64,000 nt of DNA from Prevotella sp. (GTDB taxonomy: Bacteria; Bacteroidota; Bacteroidia; Bacteroidales; Bacteroidaceae), in assembly GCA_017548275.1 (NCBI GenBank), contig JAFZAH010000038.1, positions 62,001 through 126,000 of the forward strand. The letters run 5' to 3'. Of the stretch, positions 19,704 to 34,596 are shown one piece after another. The notes under the pieces are model-generated. The model was given only the letters and a program-made list of their open reading frames with translations. It was not told the origin of the DNA and did no database searches. Positions within the stretch are counted from its first letter, which is position 1; each line of letters starts with the position of its first letter. Position numbers and translations under genes: made by a program.

Positions 19704-21683
19704 ATGGCAGCCACAGGGTATCAACTGACAGACTGGCTCCCCACGACGAAAAAAGAAGTGGAATTGCGTGGTTGGGAGCAGTTGGATGTCATCCTTTTTT
19801 CGGGTGACGCCTACGTTGACCATCCCTCATTCGGTGCTGCCGTGATAGGCCGCACATTGGAGGCGGCGGGTTATCGGGTGGCTATTGTTCCCCAGCCCGA
19901 CTGGCATGGCGACTACCGCGATTTCAAGAAACTGGGCGTGCCGCGCTTGTTTTTCGGTATTGCGCCCGGTTGCATGGACTCGATGGTGAACAAATACACC
20001 GCCGCACGCCGTCTTCGCGCAGAAGACGCTTATAGTCCTGACGGGCACCATAGTTACCGCCCGGAATATCCCACGATTGTCTATACCAAGATATTGAAAG
20101 AGTTGTTTCCTGACACCCCGGTGGTGTTAGGAGGCATCGAAGCGTCGTTGCGCCGGCTGACGCATTACGACTACTGGCAAAACCGCCTGATGCGCTGTAT
20201 TCTGCACGATTCGGGCGGCGACATGATTATTTACGGTATGGGAGAGCGCCCTATCGTGGAGTTGTGCCGTCAGATGGACGAGGGACTTCCCGTCTCCGCC
20301 ATTCGCGATACCCCACAGACAGTATATCTCTCGAAAGAAAGCGACATACCCGGCGGTATCGGCGAGAACGACATCGTTCTGCACAGTCATGAGCGTTGCC
20401 TGAAGGACAAACGGGCCGAAGCGGAGAATTACCGTCACATCGAAGAGGAGTCAAACAAGATGCATGCCCAGCGTCTGCTGCAAAAGACGGGCGACCTCTA
20501 TACGGTGGTGAATCCCCCCTACCCGCCCATGACGACCGCAGAGATTGACGCTTCGTTCGACCTGCCCTATACACGGCTGCCTCACCCCAAATACAAGAAC
20601 AAGCGCATCCCCGCTTTTGACATGATTAAGCATTCGGTGAATATCCACCGGGGGTGTTTCGGAGGTTGCGCCTTTTGTACCATCAGTGCCCATCAGGGGA
20701 AATTTATCAGTTGCCGCAGCAAGGAGAGCATCCTGCGCGAAGTGAAACAAGTGGCCGCATTGCCCGATTTCAAGGGTTATCTGTCGGATTTAGGCGGTCC
20801 GTCGGCCAACATGTACGGCATGCACGGGCGCAATGAGAAGGCCTGCGAGCACTGCAAGCGTCCGTCGTGCATCCATCCGCAGATTTGTCCCAACCTGAAT
20901 ACTGACCACAGCGCACTGCTTGACATCTATCACGCCGTTGACGCTTTGCCTGAAATCAAGAAGAGTTTTATCGGCAGCGGTGTGCGCTATGACCTGCTGT
21001 TGCACGAGAGCAAGGACGAGGCAGCGAACGCCTCTGCCCGCCGTTATACCCGTGAACTGATATGCCGACATGTGAGCGGACGCTTGAAGGTTGCCCCAGA
21101 ACATACGTCGGATGCGGTGTTGCATCTGATGCGGAAACCGTCATTCCGGTTGTTTGAGCAATTTAAGCGGGTTTTCGACCACATCAACCAAGAGGAGCAA
21201 CTGCGGCAGCAAATCATCCCTTACTTCATCAGCAGTCATCCTGGTTGCCACGAGGCAGACATGGCAGAATTGGCTGTCAAGACGAAACAGATGGATTTCC
21301 ATCTGGAACAGGTACAAGACTTCACACCCACGCCGATGACCATCAGCACTGAAATGTGGTACACAGGCTATGACCCCTATACATTGGAACCTGTGTTCAG
21401 TGCTAAGACTGCCGAGGAGAAACAGGCGCAGCGTATGTTCTTCTTCTGGTATCAACCCGAAGAGCGCAGAAAGATAGAAAGGGAATTGCGCCGTATCGGG
21501 CGTGCCGACCTTATCAACCAATTATACGGACATCAAGACCGGCGGCCTTTTGAGAGGAACCGTTTTGAACAACCTGCAGGGGGCAGAAAGGGAGAACAGC
21601 CGTTTGACAAAAAGAACAAGCGGCCATTCGACGAAAGAGATTCTTCGCCGAGACGTTATCAAAAGAAGAGAAATAAGAGATAA
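19704..21683 (+). CDS. ygiQ: YgiQ-family radical SAM protein
   Basis: A 659-residue iron-sulfur protein. The radical SAM cluster motif CxxxCxxC is C318, C322 and C325 in RGCFGGCAFC. The N-terminal ~290 residues are the UPF0313/B12-binding-like region (DVILFSGDAYVDHPSFG, FFGIAPGCMDSMVNKYTA, LGGIEASLRRLTHYDYW). A second Cys group (EHCKRPSCIHPQIC, near residue 390) is typical of the family. YgiQ proteins are widespread but the reaction is not established. The last ~50 residues are a basic, low-complexity Lys/Arg/Phe tail (RRPFERNRFEQP), possibly nucleic acid binding by inference. Confidence 0.9.
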   Translation: MAATGYQLTDWLPTTKKEVELRGWEQLDVILFSGDAYVDHPSFGAAVIGRTLEAAGYRVAIVPQPDWHGDYRDFKKLGVPRLFFGIAPGCMDSMVNKYTAARRLRAEDAYSPDGHHSYRPEYPTIVYTKILKELFPDTPVVLGGIEASLRRLTHYDYWQNRLMRCILHDSGGDMIIYGMGERPIVELCRQMDEGLPVSAIRDTPQTVYLSKESDIPGGIGENDIVLHSHERCLKDKRAEAENYRHIEEESNKMHAQRLLQKTGDLYTVVNPPYPPMTTAEIDASFDLPYTRLPHPKYKNKRIPAFDMIKHSVNIHRGCFGGCAFCTISAHQGKFISCRSKESILREVKQVAALPDFKGYLSDLGGPSANMYGMHGRNEKACEHCKRPSCIHPQICPNLNTDHSALLDIYHAVDALPEIKKSFIGSGVRYDLLLHESKDEAANASARRYTRELICRHVSGRLKVAPEHTSDAVLHLMRKPSFRLFEQFKRVFDHINQEEQLRQQIIPYFISSHPGCHEADMAELAVKTKQMDFHLEQVQDFTPTPMTISTEMWYTGYDPYTLEPVFSAKTAEEKQAQRMFFFWYQPEERRKIERELRRIGRADLINQLYGHQDRRPFERNRFEQPAGGRKGEQPFDKKNKRPFDERDSSPRRYQKKRNKR

Positions 21684-21741
21684 CGGATTACTGGTTCTTA
21701 TGAAATAGGCGTTTTTTCGGATTACAAATCCTTATACTCAA

Positions 21742-21759
21742 TTGGTCGGATCCGACCAA
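21742..21759. repeat. Perfect 18-bp palindrome
   Basis: TTGGTCGGATCCGACCAA is a loop-free perfect inverted repeat. It is flanked by a wider imperfect pair, ACTCAAT on the left and ATTGAGT on the right. It lies between convergent ygiQ (+) and the orphan gene (-), 58 bp after the ygiQ stop. There is no T run, so it is not an obvious terminator; a symmetric protein-binding site is possible. Confidence 0.6.
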
Positions 21760-21777
21760 ACGGGATAGATTGAGTGA

Positions 21778-22167
21778 TTATAGTGAAATGGTTTCTTGAT
21801 TGTCGTCATTCTCCATAATAGGAAGATTACCTGTTACAGCATCTACCATAAACTTTTTGATGACCGGCATGAATTTTATTATCTTTTTCCCTTGTAATTT
21901 TATCCATCTTTCATAACTCATAAGCCCGTCTTCTTTTGTATCGCAGTCGCAGTTTAAGATATAACTAGAATTATCTATTTTTCTTATAGACATTTTAAAT
22001 GCATCTTCAGTATTGTCTGATATGTATTTCTCCATTTCTTCAGTACTGCGAAAGTGATCTCGCAGACAATACCATTCCTTATTGCAAACAAGGTCTAAAT
22101 GAATAAGATTATTATCCTTTGTAATTACAGACACTCTTATAAAAGAGTCAACATCATTCATTGTCAT
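21778..22167 (-). CDS. Unknown 129-residue protein, immunity-protein-like
   Basis: A small soluble acidic protein without signal peptide (VRVSVITKDNNLIHLDLVCN, then YERWIKLQGKKIIKFMPVIK). No family recognised. It is visibly more AT-rich than its neighbours and lies between two conserved-looking genes on opposite strands. Its ATG overlaps the stop of a 39-codon frame that looks like the C-terminal end of a larger protein. This arrangement and size fit an immunity gene left behind after loss of most of a polymorphic toxin, but no immunity fold could be identified by eye. Confidence 0.6.
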   Translation of the reverse strand: MTMNDVDSFIRVSVITKDNNLIHLDLVCNKEWYCLRDHFRSTEEMEKYISDNTEDAFKMSIRKIDNSSYILNCDCDTKEDGLMSYERWIKLQGKKIIKFMPVIKKFMVDAVTGNLPIMENDDNQETISL

Positions 22168-22273
22168 TGCTGTTCATTGTCTTGTATGTTTCATATCCAA
22201 TAGACGTAGGAAGCAAGGCCTTTCCATATTTGTTGAAAACCTCTGCTGCAGCATCCCAAAAATTATGCATCAT
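22154..22273 (-). pseudogene. 39-codon frame, possible remnant of a toxin C-terminus
   Basis: The minus strand from 22273 reads MMHNFWDAAAEVFNKYGKAL and continues for 19 more residues to a TGA at 22156-22154. It has no signal or start-site features, and an in-frame stop lies 18 bp upstream. The last codons overlap the ATG of the 129-residue gene by 14 bases. The sequence looks like the end of a longer protein. Low GC matches the partner gene. It could instead be a genuine short peptide. Confidence 0.35.
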
Positions 22274-22322
22274 CAATAATTGAAAATAAAGTCAAAGATT
22301 ATTAAGGATTGGGGAGGTTCTT

Positions 22323-23345
22323 TTATTCGCTTTTAATGACGATGGTTTTGAGCCAGTCGCAGAGGACGCCTCCGTATTGGTCTTGAGAATCGGCGACGAG
22401 GACGATGACTTGGTCGCCATTGCTGAGTTTAGGGCCGAGGCACATTCCCTCAAAATTGGCGATGGACTGCACGAACAAACCCAATGATGTGCGCCACTGG
22501 CAGATGAGTTGTTTTTTCAGCACTTTCTCTTTGTTCCATGCGGCATCGCCAGCCACCTTGTTCTCTTTTTGGGGATGTACACAATAAATTTTGGAATTGA
22601 CGAAAGCGCCGAGTTTTCCGTTCGGAACATAAAACTCACGTTCCATGACCAACAAATCGCCGTTATCGAGCGCAGTGAGGGCGCTACACCCCATGGCGTA
22701 TCTCGTTGACTTGTTTTTTGCCACGGGCGCATCCATCTCGTAGAGATATTGTCCGGCTGGTTGCAAATCTTCCGTAAACGCCTGAAGACGCAACCTGTTT
22801 TTTGTGTTAGACCCGCCTGCTGCCTGTTGACCGTCGGCTTTCAAGGTGCTCTCGGTGGTTATCCAAAAACGATGGGTGTTCCCGTTGTACGTAACCGACT
22901 CCACACCGTATTTCCCTCCGGCATTGAGAAAACGTTTTGGCATTTTCAGCATCCGCCCCGTGCGTTTTCCGTTCAAGTCATACTCGCGCGCCTGATTGTC
23001 GGATTCGCCCACGACGAACAGTGTCTTTTTTGAGGGGAAGAAAGCGATATCCTCGGCATCACGCCCGTTATTACCGTTTTCTTTTCTCTCTTTGAGAGTC
23101 GCGTTTTTTATGACGCCCGTATTGGGGTCAATACTGATTTTGAAAATCAAGAACCCGTCTTTTGCCTTGTCAGACACCACAGCATACTCATCCTCACCGA
23201 GCCATGTGATACCGCTGTAATTACCTGCGGGAATATGCTCGGGGAACTCCTTTTGCCGATGTTCTTTCACCAGACGGGTCTGTGCATCGGCCATGACTGC
23301 GACCATAATCAATGTGAGAAGACAAAAGACGGTTTTTCTCATCAT
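22323..23345 (-). CDS. Secreted esterase-like-of-phytase family beta-propeller protein
   Basis: A 340-residue secreted protein (signal peptide ending MADAQ). Repeated propeller strands are seen: YSGITWLGEDEYAVVSDK, DAEDIAFFPSKKTLFVVGES, GVESVTYNGNTHRFWITTES, GCSALTALDNGDLLVMER, and ANFEGMCLGPKLSNGDQVI. Asp/Glu residues at equivalent places are the putative Ca or substrate ligands of the phytase-like esterase family. The reaction is not established. It ends with the typical VLVADSQDQYGG strand. It lies 36 bp downstream of the metallo-beta-lactamase-fold gene on the same strand and is probably co-transcribed with it. Confidence 0.8.
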   Translation of the reverse strand: MMRKTVFCLLTLIMVAVMADAQTRLVKEHRQKEFPEHIPAGNYSGITWLGEDEYAVVSDKAKDGFLIFKISIDPNTGVIKNATLKERKENGNNGRDAEDIAFFPSKKTLFVVGESDNQAREYDLNGKRTGRMLKMPKRFLNAGGKYGVESVTYNGNTHRFWITTESTLKADGQQAAGGSNTKNRLRLQAFTEDLQPAGQYLYEMDAPVAKNKSTRYAMGCSALTALDNGDLLVMEREFYVPNGKLGAFVNSKIYCVHPQKENKVAGDAAWNKEKVLKKQLICQWRTSLGLFVQSIANFEGMCLGPKLSNGDQVIVLVADSQDQYGGVLCDWLKTIVIKSE

Positions 23346-23381
23346 GTCAGAGGACAGATAACAATTATAACAGTAGATAAA

Positions 23382-24185
23382 TCAAATCAATTCGTAAGGT
23401 CCAGAGGGGTTTTTGCGTTTGAGCACGTCCATCTTAAAATCGACACCGACAACAATGCCATGCCTTCTCAATTCCTGTTCAACAGTGATGCGCGCCAGTT
23501 CGGGGTGATTGTTCTCTTCGCTGAGATGACAGAGCCAAACCTGCCTTAATTCTGGAGTAGCATTCTCAACAAGCGCCTGAGCACAGGCATGATTGGAGAG
23601 GTGTCCCTCCTCGCTGCTGATTCTGTCTTTCAAGTATTGGGGATATGCACCACCTCTGAGCATCTCGACATCATGATTCGCCTCGATGACGAGGTAATTT
23701 GCCTTGGAGATAAGTTGTTTCATCTGTTCAGTGACATGGCCGGCATCGGTCATGAGACAGAAATTGACATCCTGCCATTGAATGAAGAATCCCACATTGT
23801 CGTTGCTGTCGTGTGGCACGAAGAAAGGCGTGACGTTGAACTCACCCATCAGCACGGTCTTGTCTTTTTCGAGGAATTTGGCATCAGCACCATCGATTTT
23901 CGCCCTGACACAATAATTGGTGTTAATGCCCCTGTGCACATCTTCAGTAGCATAAACCGGCACATGCAGGTCTCTGCTTAGCGACCCTACCGACTTGACA
24001 TGGTCGGCATGATCGTGAGTAATCAGAATATGGTGTATGCGGTTCATGGAAATCCCATATTCCGCAAATTGTTTTTTCAGCGTTCTCACCCCTATGCCCG
24101 CGTCAATCAGGATGGCATCATCAGGGGAATATAGCAGGTAGCAATTGCCGCTACTGCCACTGCCAAAAGAGAGAAATTTCAGCAT
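23382..24185 (-). CDS. WalJ/YycJ-like metallo-beta-lactamase-fold hydrolase
   Basis: A 267-residue cytosolic protein. It opens with FGSGSSGNCYLL, as in the YycJ/WalJ family, then ILIDAGIG. The metal site is THDHADH at residues 56-62, followed by a later FVPHDSNDNVG His/Asp pair and the MTDAGHV ligand. WalJ-type proteins are linked to 5'-3' DNA exonuclease activity and cell wall coordination in Firmicutes; in Bacteroidetes the role is not settled. Length is normal. A TACTTTTG box lies about 20 bp before the ATG. Confidence 0.85.
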   Translation of the reverse strand: MLKFLSFGSGSSGNCYLLYSPDDAILIDAGIGVRTLKKQFAEYGISMNRIHHILITHDHADHVKSVGSLSRDLHVPVYATEDVHRGINTNYCVRAKIDGADAKFLEKDKTVLMGEFNVTPFFVPHDSNDNVGFFIQWQDVNFCLMTDAGHVTEQMKQLISKANYLVIEANHDVEMLRGGAYPQYLKDRISSEEGHLSNHACAQALVENATPELRQVWLCHLSEENNHPELARITVEQELRRHGIVVGVDFKMDVLKRKNPSGPYELI

Positions 24186-24203
24186 TGTGTGTGTTTATTT
24201 TTG

Positions 24204-24211
24204 CAAAAGTA
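24204..24211 (-). promoter_or_regulatory. -7 box of the WalJ-like gene
   Basis: The minus strand reads TACTTTTG followed by C, 18 bp before the ATG. No TTG at standard spacing upstream. Confidence 0.45.
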
Positions 24212-24378
24212 CGCATTATTTTTGAAACAGTGGTCATGAAAAGTGATTTTTTAACTTAACGAGATTTCGACGAATTATTAAGTAGTCGCCTTGGCGAGAT
24301 ATTTTACAAATTTTAATCAAATCTTTCAAGAGTCTGCCACGAGTGGCACAAAATCGGAAAGCACTATTTGGTTTACAT

Positions 24379-24517
24379 CGAATTTTGTAACGACTCAGCA
24401 AAATGTGCTAGCACATTTTGCTTTCGCTGCTCCAAATTTGATTTACAACCGAATTTTGTCACGACTCAGCAGAAAATGCAAGCACTTTCTGCTTTCGCTG
24501 CTCCAAAATTTGGTTTT
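24379..24517 (+). repeat. Dimeric 71-bp palindromic repeat, left array
   Basis: Two copies of a ~66-bp unit start at 24379 and 24450 (71-bp period). Each reads CGAATTTTGT, an ACGACTC stretch, a palindromic core, then TTTCGCTGCTCCAAAT/ATTTG. The core of copy one is GCAAAATGTGC-TA-GCACATTTTGC (24 bp, perfect). The core of copy two is GCAGAAAATGC-AA-GCACTTTCTGC (one mismatch). The stems differ in sequence but keep pairing. A third decayed unit may precede them (24330-24375). The same dimer occurs inverted at 28757-28894. The right-hand end of copy two supplies the -33 TTG of the next promoter. The rest of 24186-24573 has no gene. Confidence 0.85.
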
Positions 24518-24540
24518 TATGTGGACTTGGATTAACTTTG
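24510..24540 (+). promoter_or_regulatory. Promoter of the 163-residue lipoprotein gene
   Basis: TTG at 24510-24512, inside the CCAAAATTTGG end of the repeat, a 20-bp spacer, then TAACTTTG at 24533-24540. Transcription would start near 24547, after the first in-frame ATG at 24538, so translation begins at 24574. Confidence 0.75.
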
Positions 24541-24573
24541 CACGACATAAACCCATCAACCATCTCAATCGTC

Positions 24574-25065
24574 ATGAATCATCGTACATCCTCCACTCTA
24601 TCGTTATTGTATGGCATGCTTGTAATACTTTGTGTGTCAATGGTTTCCTTTTCGTGCGAACGGCAAGAGAAACGTCCTGCCCAAGGCAATGCAACAACAA
24701 CTGTAGAGAAGTTTTGTGCTGCGTATTTCAATCTTCAGTATGAGGAGGCACTGAAATATTGCACCCCTGAATCACAAAAATGGATTTCCTTCGCAGCAAG
24801 CAATATTTCCGAGGAGGATCTGGCGGTGATGCGCAACCGAGAGGGAGGCACGTCGATAGAAGTGACAGAGATAGACGCCCATGACACCGACACCATAGGA
24901 CAAGCCACTGTGAAAGCAGGCAACTATTTAAGTATAGAGAAGATTGATGACAAAGCCTATATCGCAGATGAAGGCATCTTCCATTTTGACCTTGTGAAAC
25001 GTGACGGAAAATGGAAGGTCAGAATGGCAGGCCTACCGCGAAATGAAATGCGAAATCGCGACTGA
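24574..25065 (+). CDS. Small lipoprotein with NTF2-like/DUF4878-type domain
   Basis: A 163-residue protein. A hydrophobic N-terminus ends at VSFSC, a relaxed lipobox, so it is probably a lipoprotein. The mature part is an NTF2-like cone: VEKFCAAYFNLQYEEALKYC (first helix pair), then strands GQATVKAGNYL and GIFHFDLVKRDGKWKVRM. The DGKWKV end is typical of DUF4878-like proteins of unknown function. The ATG at 24538 is rejected on promoter position. The last 47 bp overlap the 3' end of the TamL gene on the other strand. Confidence 0.72.
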   Translation: MNHRTSSTLSLLYGMLVILCVSMVSFSCERQEKRPAQGNATTTVEKFCAAYFNLQYEEALKYCTPESQKWISFAASNISEEDLAVMRNREGGTSIEVTEIDAHDTDTIGQATVKAGNYLSIEKIDDKAYIADEGIFHFDLVKRDGKWKVRMAGLPRNEMRNRD

Positions 25066-27247
25066 GTTTCGGGTGCAGCAGCGGATAATGCTCCTTTGAT
25101 GTCTCGTAGGCGGGATTGACGGCTTTCATACCCATGTCAAACCTCAGTATGAAATAGTCGAAATTGAGTCTGAATCCCAAACCATAAGAGACCGCTATTT
25201 GCTTATAGAACTCGGAGAACTTGAATTGTCCTCCCGGTTGCTCTTGATAATCCCTGAGTGTCCAGATGTTACCCGCATCGATAAACAGCGCGCCATTGAT
25301 TTTCCAGAAAAGGAATGTGCGGAATTCCATGTTAAGGTCGAGCCTCATGTCGCCCGTCTGGTTGATGAAATCGATGGCTCCCTCATGCCCTTTGTATTTA
25401 CCTGGTCCGAGACGTCGTACGCCCCATCCTCTGACGGAGTTGGAGCCGCCCGAGAAATAACGTTTTTCGAAAGGCAGCACACGGCTGTTGCCGTATGGAT
25501 AAGCGATACCTATGCCCGCGTGAAAGATGAGCGAGTTGTGCTCATCGAACGCGAAGGCTTTGGTGTAGTCGAAGTCGCCTTTGACATATTGTGCAAAAGC
25601 GATATTAAAGAGCGTGTATTGTCCTTCACTGTTTTTCTTGGCATCGAAGAGAGAGGATGTGGCATTGAGCACATTTCCCGCCGTTTCGATGTTCGCCCTG
25701 ACCGCATGCGACCCGATGGTGTATGAGAATCCGAAACCGATGCGCATGATGAAAAGGTCCTCGTAGTTGTATCTGAGGATGGCATTTCTGGTCGTGGATG
25801 AATCATCAAGGTAATTTTGCTTAAACGTGGCAGAAATCCACGGCATATAGATATAGTTAAGGTCGATGAGGTCGAGTTTATAGTTGATATTCCTTCCTTT
25901 GTCGAGCCATCTGTATCTCCATGCGGCGGAAAACAAGCGTCGATGGAACTCAGGTCTGTTTTGGAGGTTATATCCCAATGACAATTCCGACGTGGCATAA
26001 TTCTGTCTGAGGAATCGTTTTGAAAGGAACGGGGCGACAAACGTGGGAAACTGGAGTTTTGCCTCCGTACCATATTCGATGTAATTCTCATTGGAATAGC
26101 CCTCCAACCCCGTGATAGCCTCGAAAGCGCCTCGGAATTGCAAGGTAAGCAATTCTGATCCATGGAAGAGGTTACGGTTTTGGTAGGACAACGTGGCAGC
26201 CGCTCCGAGGTCGCCGGCAGTATTGGTTCCCTCAGGCGAGAAGGACAAAGTGTGCGGCTTATGCGTTCCTATGACGATGTCGCAATCGAGGAGTGTGGTA
26301 TCCTCCAACTCCCTTAGTCGTATGTTGGTGTATTTGACCGCACTCAGACGTGCGAAATTATTATACGTCTTTTGTATGGCAGGCGCGTGATAGAGGTCGC
26401 CGGCCTGCAGTTCTGACGCATTTTCGAGAACCGCGTGTCTCAGACGGAGGGGTTCATCAGTATTGCTGAGGAAATTGACCTTTCTGATATGATAGACCTG
26501 ATGAGGCCTGGGCTGGGCGCTGTTGTTTTCCTTGTATTTGAGCAGTTGTAGCGTCAAGTCAACATTATACCCGTTGCGGACGGTATCGGCCGTGAATTGT
26601 ATAAACTCCTTGTTGAAACGGTAATAGCCATTGTCAGTGAGCAGCGCCGTGATACGTTTACGTTCAGCATCTAAGCCGTTGACGGTAAACATGTTACCCG
26701 GCTTGATGGTCCACGACGATGACTCCTGCGCCGCCAATATGCGCTGAATGGTCGAGTCCTGTATGTCGTAATCCACCCTTCCAATATAATAAGGTTTGCC
26801 GGGATGGAGTGTATAGATGTCGGTCAGTTTCTTGCCTTTGATGACGGTGCGGTGAGTAACATATGACGACATGTAGCCCCGGTTTTGCAGAGCCACCTTG
26901 AGGTCGTTCATCGACAACATCGCCTGCAAGGAGTCATACAATACAGGCGGTTCACCTAAGTGTCTGAGCGAGCGGTTTATCCATTTAGCCGAATCGCGCC
27001 CAGCTAGGGAATAGGTGGCGAGCGGTATTCTGAGCATCGAGAACCATTTGGAATTGGTTTTTTGCCTGACGTAAGGAGCCAGTTCCTTCGCGTCGAAGTT
27101 CTCATCGGCTGACTCTACCACCACCTTATCCAAGAGGTATCTGTCTTCAGGAACGAATTTCGTTGACGAGCACGCCGAAATCATGGCGACCGTGACAGCC
27201 GCCATGATAATGGTAAGCGTATGATGCCGACAACTAATCTTAAACAA
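25019..27247 (-). CDS. tamL: TamL, lipid-anchored TamA/BamA-family outer membrane protein
   Basis: A 742-residue outer membrane assembly protein. The signal has a lipobox MISAC with Cys26, which marks the Bacteroidetes TamL subtype rather than plain TamA. POTRA-like domains occupy about residues 30-370 (for example YLLDKVVVES, GKPYYIGRVDYDI, HQVYHIRKVNF). The Omp85 barrel follows, with motif GGSNSVRGWG near residue 600 and a C-terminal strand ending FAVGLPF with a terminal Phe. TamL works with TamB in moving protein or lipid to the outer membrane; tamB is not next to it here. It overlaps MaoC upstream by 8 bp and the lipoprotein gene tail-to-tail by 47 bp. Confidence 0.88.
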   Translation of the reverse strand: MFKISCRHHTLTIIMAAVTVAMISACSSTKFVPEDRYLLDKVVVESADENFDAKELAPYVRQKTNSKWFSMLRIPLATYSLAGRDSAKWINRSLRHLGEPPVLYDSLQAMLSMNDLKVALQNRGYMSSYVTHRTVIKGKKLTDIYTLHPGKPYYIGRVDYDIQDSTIQRILAAQESSSWTIKPGNMFTVNGLDAERKRITALLTDNGYYRFNKEFIQFTADTVRNGYNVDLTLQLLKYKENNSAQPRPHQVYHIRKVNFLSNTDEPLRLRHAVLENASELQAGDLYHAPAIQKTYNNFARLSAVKYTNIRLRELEDTTLLDCDIVIGTHKPHTLSFSPEGTNTAGDLGAAATLSYQNRNLFHGSELLTLQFRGAFEAITGLEGYSNENYIEYGTEAKLQFPTFVAPFLSKRFLRQNYATSELSLGYNLQNRPEFHRRLFSAAWRYRWLDKGRNINYKLDLIDLNYIYMPWISATFKQNYLDDSSTTRNAILRYNYEDLFIMRIGFGFSYTIGSHAVRANIETAGNVLNATSSLFDAKKNSEGQYTLFNIAFAQYVKGDFDYTKAFAFDEHNSLIFHAGIGIAYPYGNSRVLPFEKRYFSGGSNSVRGWGVRRLGPGKYKGHEGAIDFINQTGDMRLDLNMEFRTFLFWKINGALFIDAGNIWTLRDYQEQPGGQFKFSEFYKQIAVSYGLGFRLNFDYFILRFDMGMKAVNPAYETSKEHYPLLHPKLSRDFAFHFAVGLPF

Positions 27248-27704
27248 AATAATAAAGGAATGAAGCGATGCCCTCGAGAGCCGGTTTCCGCTGGCCTTCG
27301 ATTTCTATTTTAAATTGTATCTCGGCTTTACAGATGCCTCTCAAGTCGGCGATGTTATGCAGTTTGGTGACCAGTCTGACCCTTGACCCAGTGATGACGG
27401 GCTGTCCGAACTTCATTTTGTCCATGCCGTAATTGACCAGCATCTTGATGTTGCGCACATCGATAATCTGGTCCCACATATACGGCAAGAGCGAAAGCGT
27501 GAGATACCCGTGTGCGATAGTGCTTTTATACTGGCTTTCCTGTTTAGCACGCTCCACATCGACATGAATCCACTGGTGGTCGAGTGTGGCATCGGCAAAG
27601 AGGTTAATACGGTCTTGGTCTACCAAAAGCCAATCGGAGGCTCCTAGTTCTTCACCCAGATGCGCTGCGAACTCTTCGTAAGAGTTGATGATGAGTTTGT
27701 TCAT
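27240..27704 (-). CDS. MaoC-like hot-dog fold (R)-hydratase
   Basis: A 154-residue cytosolic enzyme. The family signature is present: FADATLDHQWIHVDVERA near residues 32-49 (catalytic Asp/His of the hydratase) and STIAHGYLTLSLLPYM near 61-76. The family hydrates trans-2-enoyl-CoA to the (R)-3-hydroxy form. It lies directly before tamL (8-bp overlap) and 88 bp after the phosphotransacylase gene, so acyl-CoA metabolism is a reasonable context. Substrate chain length is unknown. Confidence 0.85.
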   Translation of the reverse strand: MNKLIINSYEEFAAHLGEELGASDWLLVDQDRINLFADATLDHQWIHVDVERAKQESQYKSTIAHGYLTLSLLPYMWDQIIDVRNIKMLVNYGMDKMKFGQPVITGSRVRLVTKLHNIADLRGICKAEIQFKIEIEGQRKPALEGIASFLYYFV

Positions 27705-27718
27705 TTTTTTTATATAAT

Positions 27719-27780
27719 CTATAGTGTCTATAGCGTTTATAGAGTCTATAGAACCTATAGAACCCTATAAAACCTATAGA
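27719..27780. repeat. Tandem 9-bp CTATAG repeat
   Basis: Seven units of CTATAG (two variants, TTATAG and CTATAA) recur at 9-bp spacing (27719, 27728, 27737, 27746, 27755, then 27765 and 27774, with one 10-bp step). Each hexamer is itself palindromic. It fills the spacer between the ptb stop and the MaoC start. It may be slippage DNA; the number of units could vary between strains. Confidence 0.7.
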
Positions 27781-27792
27781 ATCAAAAATGGT

Positions 27793-28701
27793 TTATGATA
27801 CAATAGCCGCTGCGGCGAGGCTATAGAATTTCGACTGTTTGCTGTCGCCGCGTGAAGCGAGCACCACAGGAGCAAGCGTCCCCTGCAACATGCCGGCGGT
27901 CTCGGCTCCTGCGAAGAGCGTGATTGTCTTGTAAAACACATTACCAGCCTCTATATCAGGGAAGATGAGCACATCGGCCTCGCCGTTAATCGGTGAGACG
28001 ATGCCTTTTTTCTCGAGACTGTGGCGGTCGAGAGAGGTCTTCAGATCAAGCGGCCCGTCGATGACGCAGGGCCCGAAATCACCTTTTTCCGCCTGTGCGA
28101 TGATATCCTTGTATCCGACAGTAAAGGGGAACGCCTTTTCACTCACCTTCTCCGAGCAATGGATGAGGGCTATTTTCGGTTTCTCCACACCGAGAGAATG
28201 ACAGAGCGAAGTGGTGTATTTTATCTGCTCCACCCTTTGTTCCTGTGTGGGATAAGGAATGACGGCGGGGTCAGTGAAGATCAGCAGTTTGTGGTAAGCG
28301 GGTATCTGCGACACGGTGACATGCGTGAGCACACGTCCCCTCGGCAAAATGCCCGTTTCTTTATTGAGCACCGCGTGAAGCAGATTATCGGTGTTAATCA
28401 TGCCCTTCATCAGGATGTCGGCTTCTCCCTCACGCACGAGTGCCACCGCCTTAGCAGCAGCCTCGTCGGGTTCCACTGCCTCGATGTAAGTGATGTGGTC
28501 GGCATATTTGCGTGCACCCTCGGTGCATTCGATTTTATCCTTGCATCCGACGAATACAGCATCGATGATGCCCGCCTCGAGAGCGAGGAATACAGCAGAC
28601 TGCGTGGAATCGTCAGAGGCACAGACGACCGCCACTTTTTTCCGTTTACCAATCTGTGCGAGATGCGCCACGAGATTGTCAAAATTGTTAATGGTTTCCA
28701 T
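27793..28701 (-). CDS. ptb: Phosphate acetyl/butyryltransferase family protein
   Basis: A 302-residue cytosolic enzyme that exchanges the CoA of an acyl-CoA for phosphate. Family features: VAVVCASDDSTQSAVFLALE, DILMKGMINTDNLLHAVLNKE split by Gly/Met turns, LTHVTV, LLIFTDPAVIPYPT, and GEADVLIFPDIEAGNVFYK with the C-terminal ATAGMLQG-like loop. Length and pattern favour phosphate butyryltransferase over the larger Pta. No butyrate kinase gene is in the window. The ATG at 28701 (METINNF) is preferred over an upstream TTG. The promoter takes its -33 element from the repeat array. It heads the ptb-MaoC-tamL operon. Confidence 0.85.
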   Translation of the reverse strand: METINNFDNLVAHLAQIGKRKKVAVVCASDDSTQSAVFLALEAGIIDAVFVGCKDKIECTEGARKYADHITYIEAVEPDEAAAKAVALVREGEADILMKGMINTDNLLHAVLNKETGILPRGRVLTHVTVSQIPAYHKLLIFTDPAVIPYPTQEQRVEQIKYTTSLCHSLGVEKPKIALIHCSEKVSEKAFPFTVGYKDIIAQAEKGDFGPCVIDGPLDLKTSLDRHSLEKKGIVSPINGEADVLIFPDIEAGNVFYKTITLFAGAETAGMLQGTLAPVVLASRGDSKQSKFYSLAAAAIVS

Positions 28702-28732
28702 AGTGTGCAAATAATTGATTTCTTATTTTCTG

Positions 28733-28763
28733 CAAAAGTACGGATAAGCGGGCGAAAAACCAA
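28733..28763 (-). promoter_or_regulatory. Promoter of the ptb-MaoC-tamL operon
   Basis: On the minus strand TTG at 28763-28761 lies in the CCAAAATTTGG end of the repeat array. A 20-bp spacer leads to TACTTTTG at 28740-28733, about 32 bp before the ATG. The first seven bases after the TTG-containing end (GTTTTT and before) match the left promoter at 24510, then the two diverge. Confidence 0.75.
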
Positions 28764-28894
28764 ATTTTGGAGCAGCGAAAGCAGAAAGTGCTTGCATTTT
28801 CTGCTGAGTCGTGACAAAATTCGGTGCAAACCAAATTTTGGAGCAGTGAAAGCAAAATGTGCTTGCATATTTTGCTGAGTCGTGACAAAAATGG
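28757..28894 (-). repeat. Dimeric 71-bp palindromic repeat, right array (inverted copy)
   Basis: Read on the minus strand, two units (28894-28829 and 28824-28757, 71-bp period) match the left array in the same order. The first has core stem GCAAAATATGC/GCACATTTTGC, the second GCAGAAAATGC/GCACTTTCTGC. Each stem keeps pairing with a single G-T substitution. The promoter-proximal end CCAAAATTTGGTTTTT is identical to the left array. A decayed third copy may continue to 28915 (TCAAATTTGCTGC). The array lies between the ptb promoter and the terminator of the 17-aa-repeat gene. Confidence 0.85.
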
Positions 28895-28925
28895 ATGGAA
28901 AATCAAATTTGCTGCCTCTAAAATA

Positions 28926-28960
28926 GAAAATGAGCGCATTCCTCTGCCTGCGCTCATATT
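28926..28960 (-). terminator. Terminator of the 17-residue-repeat protein gene
   Basis: An 8-bp perfect stem TGAGCGCA/TGCGCTCA (28931-28956) with a 10-nt loop. The minus strand continues TTTTCTATTTT. It lies 28 bp past the stop codon. Confidence 0.75.
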
Positions 28961-28983
28961 TCAGTCAGCCTATCATCCTTTTT

Positions 28984-29403
28984 TCATTTGTCAAAGAAAT
29001 GGAAGAAAAAGAAGGCTGCAGCCCATTGTCTCCTCACTCCTTTAGCACTGCCGATGTAACTGTTGTAGGAGTTGCGCACAGTGCCGTCGCTCTCTATCTT
29101 GCCGGCATAACTGTTGTACTTGTCACGCACGGTGCCGTCGCTCTCCACCTTACCAATGTAACTGTTGTATTTGTCGCGCACGGTGCCATCACTCTCAATC
29201 TTGCCAACATAACTGTTGTAGGAGTTGCGCACGGTGCCGTCGCTCTCTATCTTACCGGCATAACTGTTGTAGGAGTTGCGCACGGTGCCGTCGCTCTCTA
29301 TCTTGCCGACATAACTGTTGTAGGAATTGCGCAAGTCTTGTGCAGTGACCGTCATGGTGACTGTCACCAGCATCAAACTGAGTAAAAAGAAATATTTTTT
29401 CAT
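28984..29403 (-). CDS. Secreted protein of five 17-residue repeats (beta-flower-like)
   Basis: A 139-residue secreted protein with signal peptide ending TVTAQ. Residues 26-110 are five tandem copies of a 17-residue unit (NSYNSYVGKIESDGTVR, with DKYNSY and I/A/V variants), and a sixth begins at 111. The C-terminal tail RRQWAAAFFFFHFFDK is hydrophobic. The pattern resembles the small repeat proteins named 5-fold beta-flower in Bacteroidales, whose role is unknown. The start at 29403 is preferred over 29457 because a TATTTTTG box (29438-29431) lies between them. The 51-bp DNA repeats are highly similar, so copy number may change by slippage. Confidence 0.75.
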   Translation of the reverse strand: MKKYFFLLSLMLVTVTMTVTAQDLRNSYNSYVGKIESDGTVRNSYNSYAGKIESDGTVRNSYNSYVGKIESDGTVRDKYNSYIGKVESDGTVRDKYNSYAGKIESDGTVRNSYNSYIGSAKGVRRQWAAAFFFFHFFDK

Positions 29404-29430
29404 AATCATGGCATGATGGTTTTCTGATTG

Positions 29431-29438
29431 CAAAAATA
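29431..29438 (-). promoter_or_regulatory. -7 box of the 17-residue-repeat gene
   Basis: The minus strand reads TATTTTTG followed by C, 28 bp before the MKKYFF start. No standard -33 TTG was found. Confidence 0.5.
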
Positions 29439-29575
29439 CAAAAAGAATTGGCATCACGCGAAGGTAAATCCCTATTTTTGAATAGGAATGTCCCTCTGAT
29501 GCGGAATTCGCAAACGATTTCGGAGAAAAATGTATTTTTTATGACCGGTGTCAACAAATAAACCAGAATTTTATG

Positions 29576-29583
29576 TACATTTG
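29576..29583 (+). promoter_or_regulatory. -7 box of the GH28-GH105 gene
   Basis: TACATTTG followed by C lies 73 bp before the ATG. The -33 element is unclear. The long leader could carry regulation, but no structure was recognised. Confidence 0.4.
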
Positions 29584-29655
29584 CAACGCAGTATGTTTTT
29601 ATTGCATCAAACTACAGAAATCTCAGTCCCCTAAAACCTGAAAATACAGAAACCT

Positions 29656-32229
29656 ATGATGAAGAAAGCCCTGACCGTGCTGTGTTGCATGTTGTTTCCC
29701 CTATCGTTGCTTGCCCAATGGGACAGCGAATATAAAGCGTTGGAGAAAAGCATCCGTCAGTTGACTTTTCCCGAGCGCGACTTCCCTATCACGAAGTACG
29801 GAGCCCAACCGACCGCAAGCGCCGCGAAAAACCAACTAGCCATCAACAAAGCCATCGATGCCTGCTCAAAAGCCGGTGGCGGCCGGGTAATAGTGCCAGC
29901 CGGCACCTGGAACACGGGGGCTATCCGTCTGAAAAGCCATGTGAACCTGGTGGTGGAGAAAGGCGCGACATTGCTGTTCGCCTTCGACCGCACACTCTAT
30001 CCTGAGGTGCTGACCCGCTGGGAAGGTTTGGACTGTTGGAACTACTCACCGCTGATATACGCCTATGGCGAGACCGATGTGGCCATCACGGGCAATGGTA
30101 CCATCGACGGCAACGGCTCGAATGAGACATGGTGGCCGATGTGCAGCAAACCGCATTTCGGGTGGAACGAATCGGTGACAGAATACCAGACACTGACCCG
30201 TCCGCGCCTGTTGAAATACGCTGAAGACGGTGTTGACGTTAACGACCGCCATTTTGGAATGGGTCAGGCTCTCCGCCCCCAGTTGATCAACCTGTATAAG
30301 TGCGATGGCATCCTGATAGAGAACGTGACCTTGCTACGCTCCCCGTTTTGGGTCATTCATCCGCTGATGAGCCAAGATGTGACCGTGCGTGGTGTGAAGA
30401 TTTGGAATGAAGGCCCCAACGGCGACGGTTGCGACCCGGAATCGTGCGACCGCGTATTGATAGAAAACTGTGTGTTCCATACAGGCGACGACTGCATCGC
30501 CATCAAGAGCGGACGTAATGCAGACGGACGCAAATGGAACATCCCGAGCCAAAACATCATCGTGAGAAACTGCACGATGGAAGACGGTCACGGCGGCGTG
30601 GTGATAGGCAGCGAAATCTCGGGCGGTTGCCGCAACGTGTTTGTGGAGAACTGCAAGATGGACTCGCCCAATCTGGACCGCGTGTTGCGCATCAAGACCA
30701 ACTCCTGTCGCGGCGGCATCATCGAGAATATCTATTTCCGCAATGTAGAGGTGGGTCAGTGCAAAGAGTCCGTGCTCCGCATCAACTTGAATTACGAGCC
30801 GAAAGAGGTGTGCTGCCGCGGTTTCTACCCGACAGTCCGCAATGTGTATATGGAAAACGTGACCTGCCAAAAGAGCCGTTATGGCATGCGGCTGAACGGA
30901 CTTGACGAGGCTGACAACATCTATAACATCAACATCAAAAACTGCCAGTTCAACGGTGTCTGGGACAGTCCGATGGAACGCACGGGCAACAGCCACGACC
31001 TGCATTTCGACAACCTGACCATCAACGGGTCACAGTTGCTCAGTGAGATGCCTTATCAGCATTACAGTGAATGGATGGCACGTTCGGAGATGAGCCGAGT
31101 GTCGCACCCCTACCTGCTTGACTTTGCCAAGAAACCGAAATGGGGTTATGCGATGGGCGTGGAGATGGAAGGCATGCTCGACGCCTACTTGACATATAAG
31201 GACGAGGCGATACTGAACTATTTGAAAGAGTTTTGCGCCGAGATGATAGATTCGAAAGGCAATATCACCGGCTACAAATACGAGGATTTCAACCTTGACA
31301 ATGTGCGTCCCGCACGTTTTGTGTATCGGATGAACGAGTTACTGCCCGAAGAAAAGCAGTTGAAGGCCCTAAAAACACTCTACAAACAATTGGAGAAACA
31401 GCCACGCACGAAAGAAGGCGTGTGGTGGCACAAGGCTATTTATGCCAATCAGGTATGGCTCGACGGCATCTATATGGGATTGCCGTATTATACCCTATCC
31501 GCCACAATGCTGAAAGGCAAGAAAGCGAAGAAATATTTTGACGACGCAATAGACCAAATAACGAAGACCGACCGTCGCACCTACGATGCCAAAACGGGAT
31601 TGTGGAAGCATGCCTGGGACGAGACACACCAGATGTTCTGGGCTGACAAAGAGACCGGTCTTTCGCAACACACATGGGCCCGTGCTCTGGGTTGGTATGT
31701 GATGGCAATGGTGGAGGTGCTCGACGCATTGCCCCAGGACTATGCCCGCCGTGGCGATGTCATAGACTTGTTCCGGAGAGCGATGAGTGCTGTTGTGAAA
31801 TATCAGGACAAAGAGAGCGGTGTTTGGTATGACGTATTAGACGTAAATGACCCGCGCAACTATCTGGAATCGACCGCCTCGTCGATGTTCACCTATTGCC
31901 TGTTGAAAGGTGCCCGTTTAGGTTATTTGGATGAAAGTTTCCAAAAGGCAGGCATCAAGGCATACGAAGGTATCATCAAACATTTCGTCCGTGTAGATGC
32001 AGACAAGACCATCTCACTGACCAACTGTTGCTCCGTGTCGGGCTTAGGTCCTGACAGTAACCCCAAAAGAGACGGTACGTTCGAGTATTACATGAGCGAA
32101 CCCATCCGTGATAATGACCCGAAAGGCATCGGTCCGTTTATCTGGTCATCGTTGGAAATGGAGCGCTTAGGATATACTACAGCGGGACAGGAGAAAGAAT
32201 ACGACGCTTCGGGCGATTTTCAAGGATAG
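29656..32229 (+). CDS. Two-domain pectinase: GH28 polygalacturonase plus GH105 unsaturated uronyl hydrolase
   Basis: An 857-residue secreted enzyme (signal peptide ending LLAQ). Residues about 40-470 are a GH28 right-handed beta-helix, with GPNGDGCDPESC near 255 (NTD-type Asp), TGDDCIAIKSG near 277 (catalytic Asp pair), GHGGVVIGSE near 311 and RIKTN near 344. Residues about 480-850 are a GH105 alpha/alpha barrel, with GYAMGVEMEGML, GVWWHKAIYANQVWLDGIYMG (substrate Asp) and RALGWYVMAM. GH28 cuts galacturonan or rhamnogalacturonan bonds, and GH105 removes the unsaturated uronic acid that lyases leave at the end. It opens the pectin locus. Confidence 0.9.
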   Translation: MMKKALTVLCCMLFPLSLLAQWDSEYKALEKSIRQLTFPERDFPITKYGAQPTASAAKNQLAINKAIDACSKAGGGRVIVPAGTWNTGAIRLKSHVNLVVEKGATLLFAFDRTLYPEVLTRWEGLDCWNYSPLIYAYGETDVAITGNGTIDGNGSNETWWPMCSKPHFGWNESVTEYQTLTRPRLLKYAEDGVDVNDRHFGMGQALRPQLINLYKCDGILIENVTLLRSPFWVIHPLMSQDVTVRGVKIWNEGPNGDGCDPESCDRVLIENCVFHTGDDCIAIKSGRNADGRKWNIPSQNIIVRNCTMEDGHGGVVIGSEISGGCRNVFVENCKMDSPNLDRVLRIKTNSCRGGIIENIYFRNVEVGQCKESVLRINLNYEPKEVCCRGFYPTVRNVYMENVTCQKSRYGMRLNGLDEADNIYNINIKNCQFNGVWDSPMERTGNSHDLHFDNLTINGSQLLSEMPYQHYSEWMARSEMSRVSHPYLLDFAKKPKWGYAMGVEMEGMLDAYLTYKDEAILNYLKEFCAEMIDSKGNITGYKYEDFNLDNVRPARFVYRMNELLPEEKQLKALKTLYKQLEKQPRTKEGVWWHKAIYANQVWLDGIYMGLPYYTLSATMLKGKKAKKYFDDAIDQITKTDRRTYDAKTGLWKHAWDETHQMFWADKETGLSQHTWARALGWYVMAMVEVLDALPQDYARRGDVIDLFRRAMSAVVKYQDKESGVWYDVLDVNDPRNYLESTASSMFTYCLLKGARLGYLDESFQKAGIKAYEGIIKHFVRVDADKTISLTNCCSVSGLGPDSNPKRDGTFEYYMSEPIRDNDPKGIGPFIWSSLEMERLGYTTAGQEKEYDASGDFQG

Positions 32230-32367
32230 AAGTCTCCCCGTTTGATCACGATGTCCAGTCAGAGACAAAAGGACTCCGATGAAACACCTCACCCTACCCC
32301 ATTAAGGGAGAATAAAAATAGAGGAAACACAATATTAATATTTTGAAAAATCAAGACATTTAAATAG

Positions 32368-34596
32368 ATGAAAAAAGCATTTTTGTTATTGGTGTCGGTG
32401 ATGATGAGTATCACCATGATGGCACAGGAGGCGACTCCAGCCTTTCCTGGCGCAGAGGGGCACGGGCGTTATGTGACGGGCGGTCGCGGTGGTGTAGTAC
32501 GCCATGTGACCAACTTGAATGACTCGGGCACCGGCTCATTCCGTTCGGCTGTGAACGGCAGTTCGAAAAAAATAGTGGTGTTCGACGTAGCGGGCGTCAT
32601 CGCATTGAAGAGCGACTTGAACATCGGCGCCAACACCACCATCTTGGGGCAAACCGCTCCTTCACCCGGCATCACCATCCGCTATTTTACGGTGCGTCCA
32701 GGTGCCAATAACATCATCCGATTCGTCCGTTTCCGCCGCGGTCAGGAGAAAAACGTGAATGACGGAGCCGATGCCATGTGGCAACGCGAGGTGACTGGCA
32801 TCATTCTTGATCACTGCTCCTTCTCTTGGTCAATCGACGAAGTGGCCTCATTTTATGACAACAACAACTTTACCATGCAATGGTGCACATTAGGTGAAAG
32901 TCTCAACAATGCCGGTCACGGAAAAGGAGCCCACGGCTACGGAGGTATCTGGGGCGGTAAACTGGCTTCGTTCCACCACAATATGATTGTTCATGTCAAT
33001 AACCGATCGCCTCGTTTCTGCGGTGCGCGCTATGACTGGACAGGCTACACGAGCAATCAACGCTACAGCGAGTTCAATTGGGAAAATGCCGTACAAGCCG
33101 AGAATGTGGATTACCGCAACTGCGTGGTGTATAACTGCGGGAATGGCTGCTATGGTGGTCCCGGCGGCGGACAAATCAACTTTGTGAACAATTACTACAA
33201 GAGCGGTCCTGCCGGCAAAACGAGTTATCTGACAACCGTCAGTGTGGGAAGTAAAGACAACTCGTCAGAAAACAGCAAATACTGGGGACTATCGAGCCGT
33301 TATTTCATCAACGGCAACCAACTCGACGACACACCAAGCAAAGACTGGTCTGCGGTGAAATATGACTCCGGCACCTATACAATCGACGGTGAACGGTATG
33401 TGACCGACCCCAACCATTATTATGGTGACATGGTGGATTACCAACAAAACAGCAACGGCACCGACTGCGTGCGCATCAAGATGGACAGTCCCGTGGATGC
33501 AGGCATGGTGACGACACACAGTGCTTCTCAGACATTCGAAAAAGTGCTGGCATATGCCGGTGCACGTATGTACCGCGACGATGTGGACCAGCGTTATGCG
33601 CAAGAGACTGAAAGCGGCACCTGTACCTACAAAGGCAGCGTGACTAAAAAATCCGGTCGCATCGACCTGGTGAGCGACGTGAACGGCTACACGGAGGAGA
33701 ATTTTGGCACCGGCAGCCGTCCATCGGGTTATGACAGTGACAACGACGGCATGCCCGATGTTTGGGAAACTGCAAACGGACTGGACCCCGAAGACGCGAG
33801 CGACGCAAATACCTACACACTCGACCCAAAGGGTTGGTACACCAACCTTGAGGTATATGCGAACTCGTTGGTAGAAGACTTGATGAAAGAAGAGAACACT
33901 GGCGCTGAGAGTACCTTTGAGGAATATTACCCGGTGGTGACCAAAGCCACGGGCATCGATTACTACAGCGGTGCATTATTGCCATCGACGACCGACCCTG
34001 TGAATCCCGGTGACGAGAGCGAAGTGACTTACACCATCTCGCAGAGCACCTATGTGAACAGTCCGAGTGACACCGAGTGGACATTCCAAAACGGCATCAC
34101 CGTCAGCAACTCAAAGAGCAAGACCTACGCAGCGGGTAAAGAGAATGGCATTAAATATTCAGCCAATGTGCAATATACCGTGAAACTGCCTGCAGGTGTG
34201 ACTATCAACAAGGTGAATTTCAAGGGTTATGACAACTATGCGGATGACGACGCATACCTGAGCGAACTGAACGGCACTAACTATGATGCAAGCGAATATG
34301 TGTTCCCGAAGAAAGACGGCGACACCTATTTCGTCACCGAGCACACCGTGGACACCAATGCCTCAGGCACGTTGACCTTCACCCCCGGCGGCAAACAGAC
34401 GGTTTGGGTAATCACACTGAACGGTTTGAAAGTGACCGGCATCGACGACGCCTTTGAAGAAGCAGATACCTTAGGCGTGAAATATTATAATGTGTCGGGA
34501 ACGGAAACTACACGCCCCGCACAAGCGAGAGGTGTGCTGATTCGCGTGGAGCATCTCTCAAACGGGAAAACAAGGACCACGAAGATTATCAAATAG
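32368..34596 (+). CDS. PL1 pectate lyase with calcium motif, beta accessory module and C-terminal tail
   Basis: A 742-residue secreted lyase (signal peptide ending MMAQ). Residues about 25-400 are the PL1 beta-helix: TPAFPGAEGHGRYVTGGRGG, LDHCSFSWSIDE, SFHHNMIVHVNNRSPR, and VVYNCGNGCYGGPGGG. A DxDNDGMPDVWE calcium/TSP3-type motif lies at about 457-468. Residues about 550-690 are a beta module (EWTFQNGITVSNSKSK to QTVWVITLNG) shared with the second PL1. The last ~50 residues resemble a truncated sorting domain. The enzyme cleaves homogalacturonan by beta-elimination. It lies 138 bp after the GH28-GH105 gene, same strand. Confidence 0.9.
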   Translation: MKKAFLLLVSVMMSITMMAQEATPAFPGAEGHGRYVTGGRGGVVRHVTNLNDSGTGSFRSAVNGSSKKIVVFDVAGVIALKSDLNIGANTTILGQTAPSPGITIRYFTVRPGANNIIRFVRFRRGQEKNVNDGADAMWQREVTGIILDHCSFSWSIDEVASFYDNNNFTMQWCTLGESLNNAGHGKGAHGYGGIWGGKLASFHHNMIVHVNNRSPRFCGARYDWTGYTSNQRYSEFNWENAVQAENVDYRNCVVYNCGNGCYGGPGGGQINFVNNYYKSGPAGKTSYLTTVSVGSKDNSSENSKYWGLSSRYFINGNQLDDTPSKDWSAVKYDSGTYTIDGERYVTDPNHYYGDMVDYQQNSNGTDCVRIKMDSPVDAGMVTTHSASQTFEKVLAYAGARMYRDDVDQRYAQETESGTCTYKGSVTKKSGRIDLVSDVNGYTEENFGTGSRPSGYDSDNDGMPDVWETANGLDPEDASDANTYTLDPKGWYTNLEVYANSLVEDLMKEENTGAESTFEEYYPVVTKATGIDYYSGALLPSTTDPVNPGDESEVTYTISQSTYVNSPSDTEWTFQNGITVSNSKSKTYAAGKENGIKYSANVQYTVKLPAGVTINKVNFKGYDNYADDDAYLSELNGTNYDASEYVFPKKDGDTYFVTEHTVDTNASGTLTFTPGGKQTVWVITLNGLKVTGIDDAFEEADTLGVKYYNVSGTETTRPAQARGVLIRVEHLSNGKTRTTKIIK

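Follow-up and report, generated by a model that had tools for sequence, protein, structure and literature searches.

Repeat arrays and genes at the locus

The window analysed here, a stretch of 64,000 nucleotides of Prevotella sp. DNA (GenBank assembly GCA_017548275.1, contig JAFZAH010000038.1, positions 62,001 to 126,000), holds a block of genes bounded by two inverted arrays of a palindromic repeat. Pfam searches on the genes of the locus identified PTA_PTB (ptb), MaoC, Omp85/POTRA (TamL-like) and metallo-beta-lactamase (MBL) matches. A small lipoprotein-like ORF (24538-25065) is an open frame, the neighbouring frame having stops, and gave no Pfam match over the scanned region 24577-25062.

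Each array is a dimer with a 71-bp period, the left units lying at 24379-24439 and 24450-24510 (plus strand) and the right units at 28757-28827 and 28828-28898. The inverted arms (24372-24518 and 28755-28901) extend over 147 bp with 90% complementarity, and a 34-nt core pattern of the unit has four matches in the window and none in 100 shuffles, which bears out the two inverted dimers proposed by a first-pass annotation of this DNA. That annotation had also read the same order of units in both arrays, with the GCAAAAT type distal and the GCAGAAA type proximal to the promoter, and an identical promoter-proximal end; the core pattern reproduces the order, the proximal cores are identical across all of the 34-nt pattern, and CCAAAATTTGGTTTTT is common to both arrays. 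Likewise, the proposed exact distance of 20 bp between TTTG and a -7 box holds on both sides, from TTTG at 24509-24512 to TAACTTTG at 24533-24540 on the left and, on the minus strand, from TTTG at 28764-28761 to TACTTTTG at 28740-28733 on the right. The Bacteroides sigma-ABfr promoter has TTTG at about -33 and TAnnTTTG at -7 (PMC7366714); boxes and spacing are the same in the window, but here they ride on dispersed hairpin repeats. The features are listed below, with bit scores from a covariance model of the unit (R1).

24354..24371, plus strand: TCGGAAAGCACTATTTGG, left flank; by eye, resembles the 5' half of a promoter cassette (CTCGGAAAAGCACAAATAAATTTGG in locus L007) and ends in the left target copy
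24380..24439, plus strand: left distal unit, GCAAAAT type (R1 62.2 bits; contig 86380-86439)
24451..24511, plus strand: left promoter-proximal unit, GCAGAAA type (R1 81.7 bits; contig 86451-86511)
24509..24512, plus strand: TTTG ending the proximal unit at its 3' side, predicted to be the -33 box of the lipoprotein-like gene
24533..24540, plus strand: TAACTTTG, predicted -7 box (left)
28733..28740, minus strand: TACTTTTG, predicted -7 box of ptb
28741..28760, minus strand: 20-bp spacer GTTTTTCGCCCGCTTATCCG; by eye, resembles the cassette 3' half (GTTTTTCGCTCGCTTATTCG)
28761..28764, minus strand: TTTG ending the proximal unit at its 3' side, predicted to be the -33 box of ptb
28762..28822, minus strand: right promoter-proximal unit, GCAGAAA type (R1 81.7 bits; contig 90762-90822)
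28833..28893, minus strand: right distal unit, GCAAAAT type (R1 72.6 bits; contig 90833-90893)
28904..28910, minus strand: AAATTTG outside the right array, by eye the left target copy

Hairpin structure and covariation of the unit

Aligned units correspond to a long, imperfectly paired hairpin in three parts: the outer stem (P1), a middle helix that is conserved and contains a bulged C, and the tip stem (P2), which is variable but covaries. The 3' arm of subtype A units, by which we mean units ending in TTTG, ends in AAATTTG, and the unit contains a stretch, X', complementary to this target, X. In an alignment of 49 distinct units, 88.6% of the cells of the outer and tip stems are paired against 74.3% upon shuffling, with none of 500 shuffles as high, and changes on both sides are seen at 16 of 20 pairs (124 cells vs 45 shuffled); sliding the pairing partner abolishes the signal. 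The earlier observation that the stems vary and yet keep pairing is thus upheld across the family, while the number of further pair types does not exceed that in shuffles (97/500). The middle helix, taken from RNAalifold, is paired in 98.8% of cells with zero both-side changes, and the P1 arms pair in 92.6%. These arms might represent terminal inverted repeats of the MITE kind, but a mini-hairpin with TTCG-type loops is present outside them, between the left target copy and P1. The loop sequences TCRCGACTC and TCGCTGCTC are strongly conserved.

Departures on the promoter strand favour G-T over A-C, by 39:1 in P1, 20:3 in the middle helix and 26:12 in P2, counts that are inflated by related rows (most of the 39 represent one conserved pair), and this excess suggests that the promoter strand folds. 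DNA folding energy picks no strand, the z scores for promoter and other strand being -2.91/-1.82, -2.97/-3.05 and -1.47/-2.58.

A promoter box at a fixed distance from subtype A units

Among 156 distinct units with flanks, spacing was counted over 65 non-tandem subtype A units and 64 units with other ends, leaving out 21 other-end and 6 subtype A units that are each followed by another unit. Of the 65 subtype A units, 41 have an exact TAnnTTTG at precisely +20 and so carry, with their TTTG, the sigma-ABfr boxes 20 bp apart as in both window promoters; 54 have it there within one mismatch. The 59 other offsets together yield 4 exact matches. An exact -7 box is lacking in 24/65, and 11/65 have none within one mismatch. 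Units with other ends have a -7 box at 19-21 in only 2/64 cases. A scatter of copies without relation to promoters, which the first-pass annotation held would speak against its reading, is therefore not what subtype A displays, but it does describe the other-end units. Similarly, the idea that the repeat forms the -33 half of the promoter stands family-wide for the TTTG-ending subtype, although the comparison of filled and empty sites given below indicates that the promoter probably predates the repeat.

A set drawn by unit sequence alone, with 30 distinct copies from 32 matches (L340 and L341 left out; the set overlaps the 65 units, where duplicates were removed), has the box at +20 in 16/30 exactly and 24/30 within one mismatch, against three at other offsets. 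Of the eight one-mismatch cases, four or more (L337, L356, L357 and L358) have, by eye, a second cassette-like stretch downstream, as though the presence of another promoter further on let the upstream -7 box decay. The spacers are often similar to the host cassette described below (gctcgcttaatcg) and often not, and so the spacing rule is not simply that of a longer repeat.

Host promoter cassettes and probable insertion at the -33 box

A search for AAATAAATTTG-N20-TAnnTTTG with at most one mismatch returned 143 matches in eight genomes vs 1 for a reversed control. Many of these belong to a cassette of about 73 bp, here termed P, which is sometimes tandem (for example in L204, L209, L212 and L287, with a period of ~73-74 bp) and reads GTACCTTTG-gcTTCGcc-GAAGGTAC-TCTCGCTC-GGAAAAGCTCAAATAAATTTGGCTTTTC-ACTCGCTTATTC-GTACCTTTG. 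Its tip stem is paired in 514/637 cells (shuffled mean 434, maximum 460) with 89 both-side changes vs 34 shuffled (maximum 48), and displays no bias between G-T and A-C departures (6 vs 8 in cassette-like rows, 37 vs 27 in all hits). An inner complement X' tracks the -7 box, matching it at two variable bases in 28/54 copies (shuffled 9.8, maximum 19 of 2000), a test that leaves out 39 of 93 promoter hits for want of a recognisable X'-like stretch. Where left and right boxes differ, in 15 copies, X' fits the right box in 9 and the left in 1. A generic X-X'-X scan proved too noisy (1024 distinct real hits vs 599 in a Markov control). In cassette P both promoter boxes therefore lie in stems of one foldable strand, and, since the host promoter is in many cases a repeat as well, the feature to be considered extends beyond the arrays. 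The window arrays have only a half-cassette, on one side each.

Several subtype A units interrupt such cassettes. The flanks of the filled site L053 match continuous cassettes (G094:C10, G094:C6, G094:C3 and G022:C23), and the two flank matches overlap by 5-7 bp, the overlap being AAATTTG. Compared with the best of 89 empty sites, which are paralogous cassettes, L053, L057, L349 and L064 agree over 30-31/33 positions on the left and 24-25/26 on the right, and five other filled sites agree less well, down to 21/32 and 17/26. In all nine filled sites tested, out of 13 candidates, the insert measures 73-76 bp, comes immediately after the -33 box and is flanked by AAATTTG left and right; this AAATTTG is always the same sequence and may belong to the element rather than being a target-site duplication. 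The halves of the host stem pair across the insert at 5.41/6 in 22 copies (permuted mean 4.76, maximum 5.27 of 2000), these being the 22 of 65 subtype A units with a usable cassette-like left flank. An orthologous pair of empty and filled sites was sought twice and none was found, and the gene downstream of L053 has no cassette in the six relatives that possess it.

The match of filled to paralogous empty sites, taken together with pairing across the insert, points to the promoter as the older component. Judged by these alignments, the hairpin apparently entered directly after AAATTTG, with its own end taking over as the box at an unchanged distance. The repeat would then make up half of the promoter because the end of the insert regenerated that half.

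Distribution of the repeat family

The own genome contains seven loci, namely the two dimers and five single copies, and six weaker relatives recognised by the covariance model. Across a genus sample of 150 genomes, own genome included, BLAST matches occur in 46 and R1 matches (E 0.001) in 101; the best 35 candidates per genome were scored, a count of 35 meaning at least 35. Outside the genus a weak match was seen in 1/295 genomes among the best 18 candidates scored for each. The 31 stretches with named sources are from uncultured Bacteroidales, many of them from ruminants. A plasmid search returned no match, and these repeats were not met with in a literature search that largely lacked subscription journals.

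One genome (G049) has near-identical other-end copies at many places, which show recent spread. Other-end copies in L143-L182 (G049, G094 and G063) are embedded in simple repeats with a 7-bp period, for instance (CAAAGTT)n, (CAATTTT)n and (CTTGCTT)n, which run on at both sides of the hairpin; several of the heptads resemble the 3' arm of the unit.

Genes behind the own-genome copies are mixed and include, by Pfam, L-PSP, a 4HBT thioesterase and a CoA-binding synthetase in addition to the lipoprotein-like gene and PTA_PTB, and others which we take to be DnaX-like and MATE-like. Genes related to acyl-CoA, with PTA_PTB, 4HBT thioesterase and CoA-binding/Succ_CoA_lig matches, are found behind 3/7 loci.

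Corresponding loci in relatives

Out of 120 genomes, ptb is present in 80 and MBL in 109. No unit was found in 29 ptb regions of relatives nor in 29 MBL/lipoprotein regions, the window's own locus being the only one with a unit among the 30 read in each case, and the arrays thus appear to be lineage-specific. The lipoprotein gene is kept near MBL in 21 relatives, and in G086 the ptb promoter is an empty cassette (L215). By eye, the TamL-like and MBL genes of L252, L254, L258, L262 and L271 share one orientation, as they do in the window, and on this account the block between the arrays looks unflipped. The absence of units from the ptb and MBL regions of relatives leaves a conserved two-transcript switch unsupported; together with the five single loci and the mixed genes behind them, it goes against the earlier proposal that the inverted pair was duplicated to co-control two transcripts.

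Comparison with known elements

The repeat is a dispersed palindrome similar to REP and MITE sequences but without the end tags of REPs. As in the REP/REPIN and RAYT systems, the units are short, intergenic, bulged palindromes which occur dispersed, as singletons and as tandem dimers, and which possibly moved as folded single strands (PMC3733652, PMC8266576). REPs are there defined by a GTAG or CGTC tetranucleotide at one end and measure 20-40 bp (PMC3733652), whereas the units measure ~60-75 bp and have neither tag, the 49 aligned units beginning GAATTTTG-like and ending CAAAATTTG-like. Also unlike REP/RAYT systems, the units do not adjoin Y1 genes, have a fixed place in a promoter and restate the target at their 3' end. 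The nearest promoter-bearing Bacteroidales repeat that we found in the literature is the BrickBuilt MITE of Porphyromonas gingivalis (PMC4596501), which is likewise gene-less, intergenic and furnished with promoter elements. It consists of a 23-nt minisatellite with leader and tail (PMC4596501), whereas the unit has no minisatellite core and keeps a fixed place relative to the -33 and -7 boxes.

A likeness in working only is seen with the IS200/IS605 family, in which a guide carried by IS608 base-pairs with the target and so selects it (PMC5934647); the unit similarly has a subterminal hairpin and an X' complementary to AAATTTG beside its foot. The guide of IS608 is however a tetranucleotide (PMC5934647), whereas that of the unit spans 7-9 nt, the target is restated at the right end, and the 60-75 bp units are gene-less and have no Y1 gene inside. 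Cassette P in turn resembles the single-stranded promoter Frpo of the F plasmid in having both boxes in stems of a foldable strand, but it is chromosomal and dispersed, and its activity as a single strand would be hypothetical (PMC9849209).

Rfam has nothing at gathering score over 20000-34000 of the window, and in nine loci searched at E 1 one hit alone exceeds its gathering score, namely the 16S rRNA next to the L103 unit. Integron attC sites have R boxes of the form RYYYAAC / GTTRRRY; they were rejected as a candidate on these boxes, the P1 arms in A1 being GAATTTTG / CAAAATTT.

Evaluation of alternative explanations

The repeat could in principle be a conserved operator or promoter part, to whose dyads a regulator binds, placing the genes behind under joint control. 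The fixed 20-bp spacing to the -7 box, the strong conservation of both loops and the acyl-CoA-related genes behind three of the seven own loci fit such a role, but a duplex operator needs no pairing, and the outer and tip stems change freely and still pair. Units are also missing from all 29 + 29 regions of relatives, the other genes behind own copies are mixed and the other-end copies are not at promoters, and we regard an operator as unlikely. Covariation of the stems, the preference for G-T over A-C on the promoter strand and the TTCG-type loops of the upstream mini-hairpin would agree with a transcribed structured RNA, such as a leader, small RNA or terminator. However, the unit ends upstream of the promoter it serves and so is not transcribed from it, no Rfam family reaches gathering score and none convinces at E 1, and a separate terminator-like hairpin can be seen by eye between the right array and its upstream gene, all of which makes a structured RNA highly improbable. 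Hardly more probable is an origin of the palindromes and their covariation as by-products of slippage and template switching in simple repeats, with no mobile element involved. Heptad repeats do flank many other-end copies, and correction of one arm by the other would by itself match changes in both arms; such correction would nevertheless remove the conserved bulges and wobble pairs, and the same core at unrelated loci in 101/150 genomes and the insert length of 73-76 bp in 9/9 filled sites also speak against such an origin.

Movement in trans of REP/MITE-like elements by a Y1 (RAYT) transposase is a less remote alternative, though still an unlikely one. Y1_Tnp matches occur in 69/101 unit-bearing vs 19/49 unit-free genomes (odds ratio 3.4, p 0.0008, a statistic that ignores genome size, completeness and kinship), and the unit, an imperfect palindrome with a bulge, has the kind of bulged imperfect hairpin which E. 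coli TnpA-REP needs (PMC8266576). Against it, Y1_Tnp has no match in 9/26 genomes with at least 10 units, two of these being 99% complete, and GTAG and CGTC ends are absent. A unit is found at only 1/16 Y1 loci, about 1.4 kb away, and the Y1 ORF, recognised in 5/9 loci, is flanked there by other repeats; the lack of a repeat-flanked RAYT gene bears on the GTAG class only, as CGTC REPs are said to lack a dedicated transposase (PMC3733652). No mover was found.

Proposed origin and implications

Considering the above, the arrays are probably two lineage-specific copies of a dispersed non-coding hairpin repeat (subtype A) belonging to Prevotella-like bacteria, nested in pre-existing promoters whose -33 box they regenerated. 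As the paralogous cassettes show, the unit follows the AAATTTG of an existing promoter directly and repeats AAATTTG at its own 3' end, whereby the -33 box is regenerated 20 bp from the -7 box; such regeneration is plausibly the reason that an insertion between promoter boxes is tolerated. Elements in tRNA genes carry the displaced 3' end of the gene, to which the restated AAATTTG may be likened. Tandem dimers perhaps formed when a further unit entered the AAATTTG junction of the first, and one window array may be a copy of the other's dimer. Any change in promoter strength, hypothetically, would stem from the replaced DNA upstream of -33.

If this origin is correct, a small non-coding repeat can enter between the -33 and -7 boxes and rebuild the promoter, keeping the exact 20-bp spacing while all upstream DNA is replaced, which would give repeats a direct route into the regulatory DNA of a group common in gut and rumen, DNA that they could inhabit and gradually replace. 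Matched natural promoters that are empty, filled or tandem would also bear on the -33 box of Bacteroidota.

More speculatively, and with considerable doubt, subtype A and cassette P might belong to one superfamily of single-strand elements, gene-less and guided by DNA, that have promoter boxes as their target and in which X' pairs with X, the element inserts beside X in folded single-stranded DNA, and X is restated at the 3' side. X would be AAATTTG (the -33 box) for subtype A and GTANNTTTG (the -7 box) for P. Promoters would then have been invaded repeatedly, with A nested in P, without being lost, and P, having both boxes in hairpin stems, may work as a single-stranded promoter.

Other repeats near units and in the window

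At one locus (L103 315-375, G045) the unit and a 16S rRNA match are oppositely oriented, and no more than about 15 bp separate the unit from the match that starts downstream of it. Three GC-rich relatives of the unit stand in tandem, 71 bp apart, at L137 1501-1702 (G000:C7), where by eye they adjoin apparent tRNA genes. A unit-like hairpin is also part of a longer repeat bounded by CTCCTTTAT / AAAGGAGGGG, with three copies in the own genome (L138-L140; G000:C27, C29 and C31), and no autonomous partner of these copies was recognised among the L138 ORFs listed. In the window, an ORF at 28984-29457 has 51-bp tandem repeats (NSYNSYVGKIESDGTVR), and a similar repeat-coding stretch precedes ptb in G019 (L214). 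Short CTATAGA-type repeats are present at 27719-27782, between ptb and the MaoC gene.
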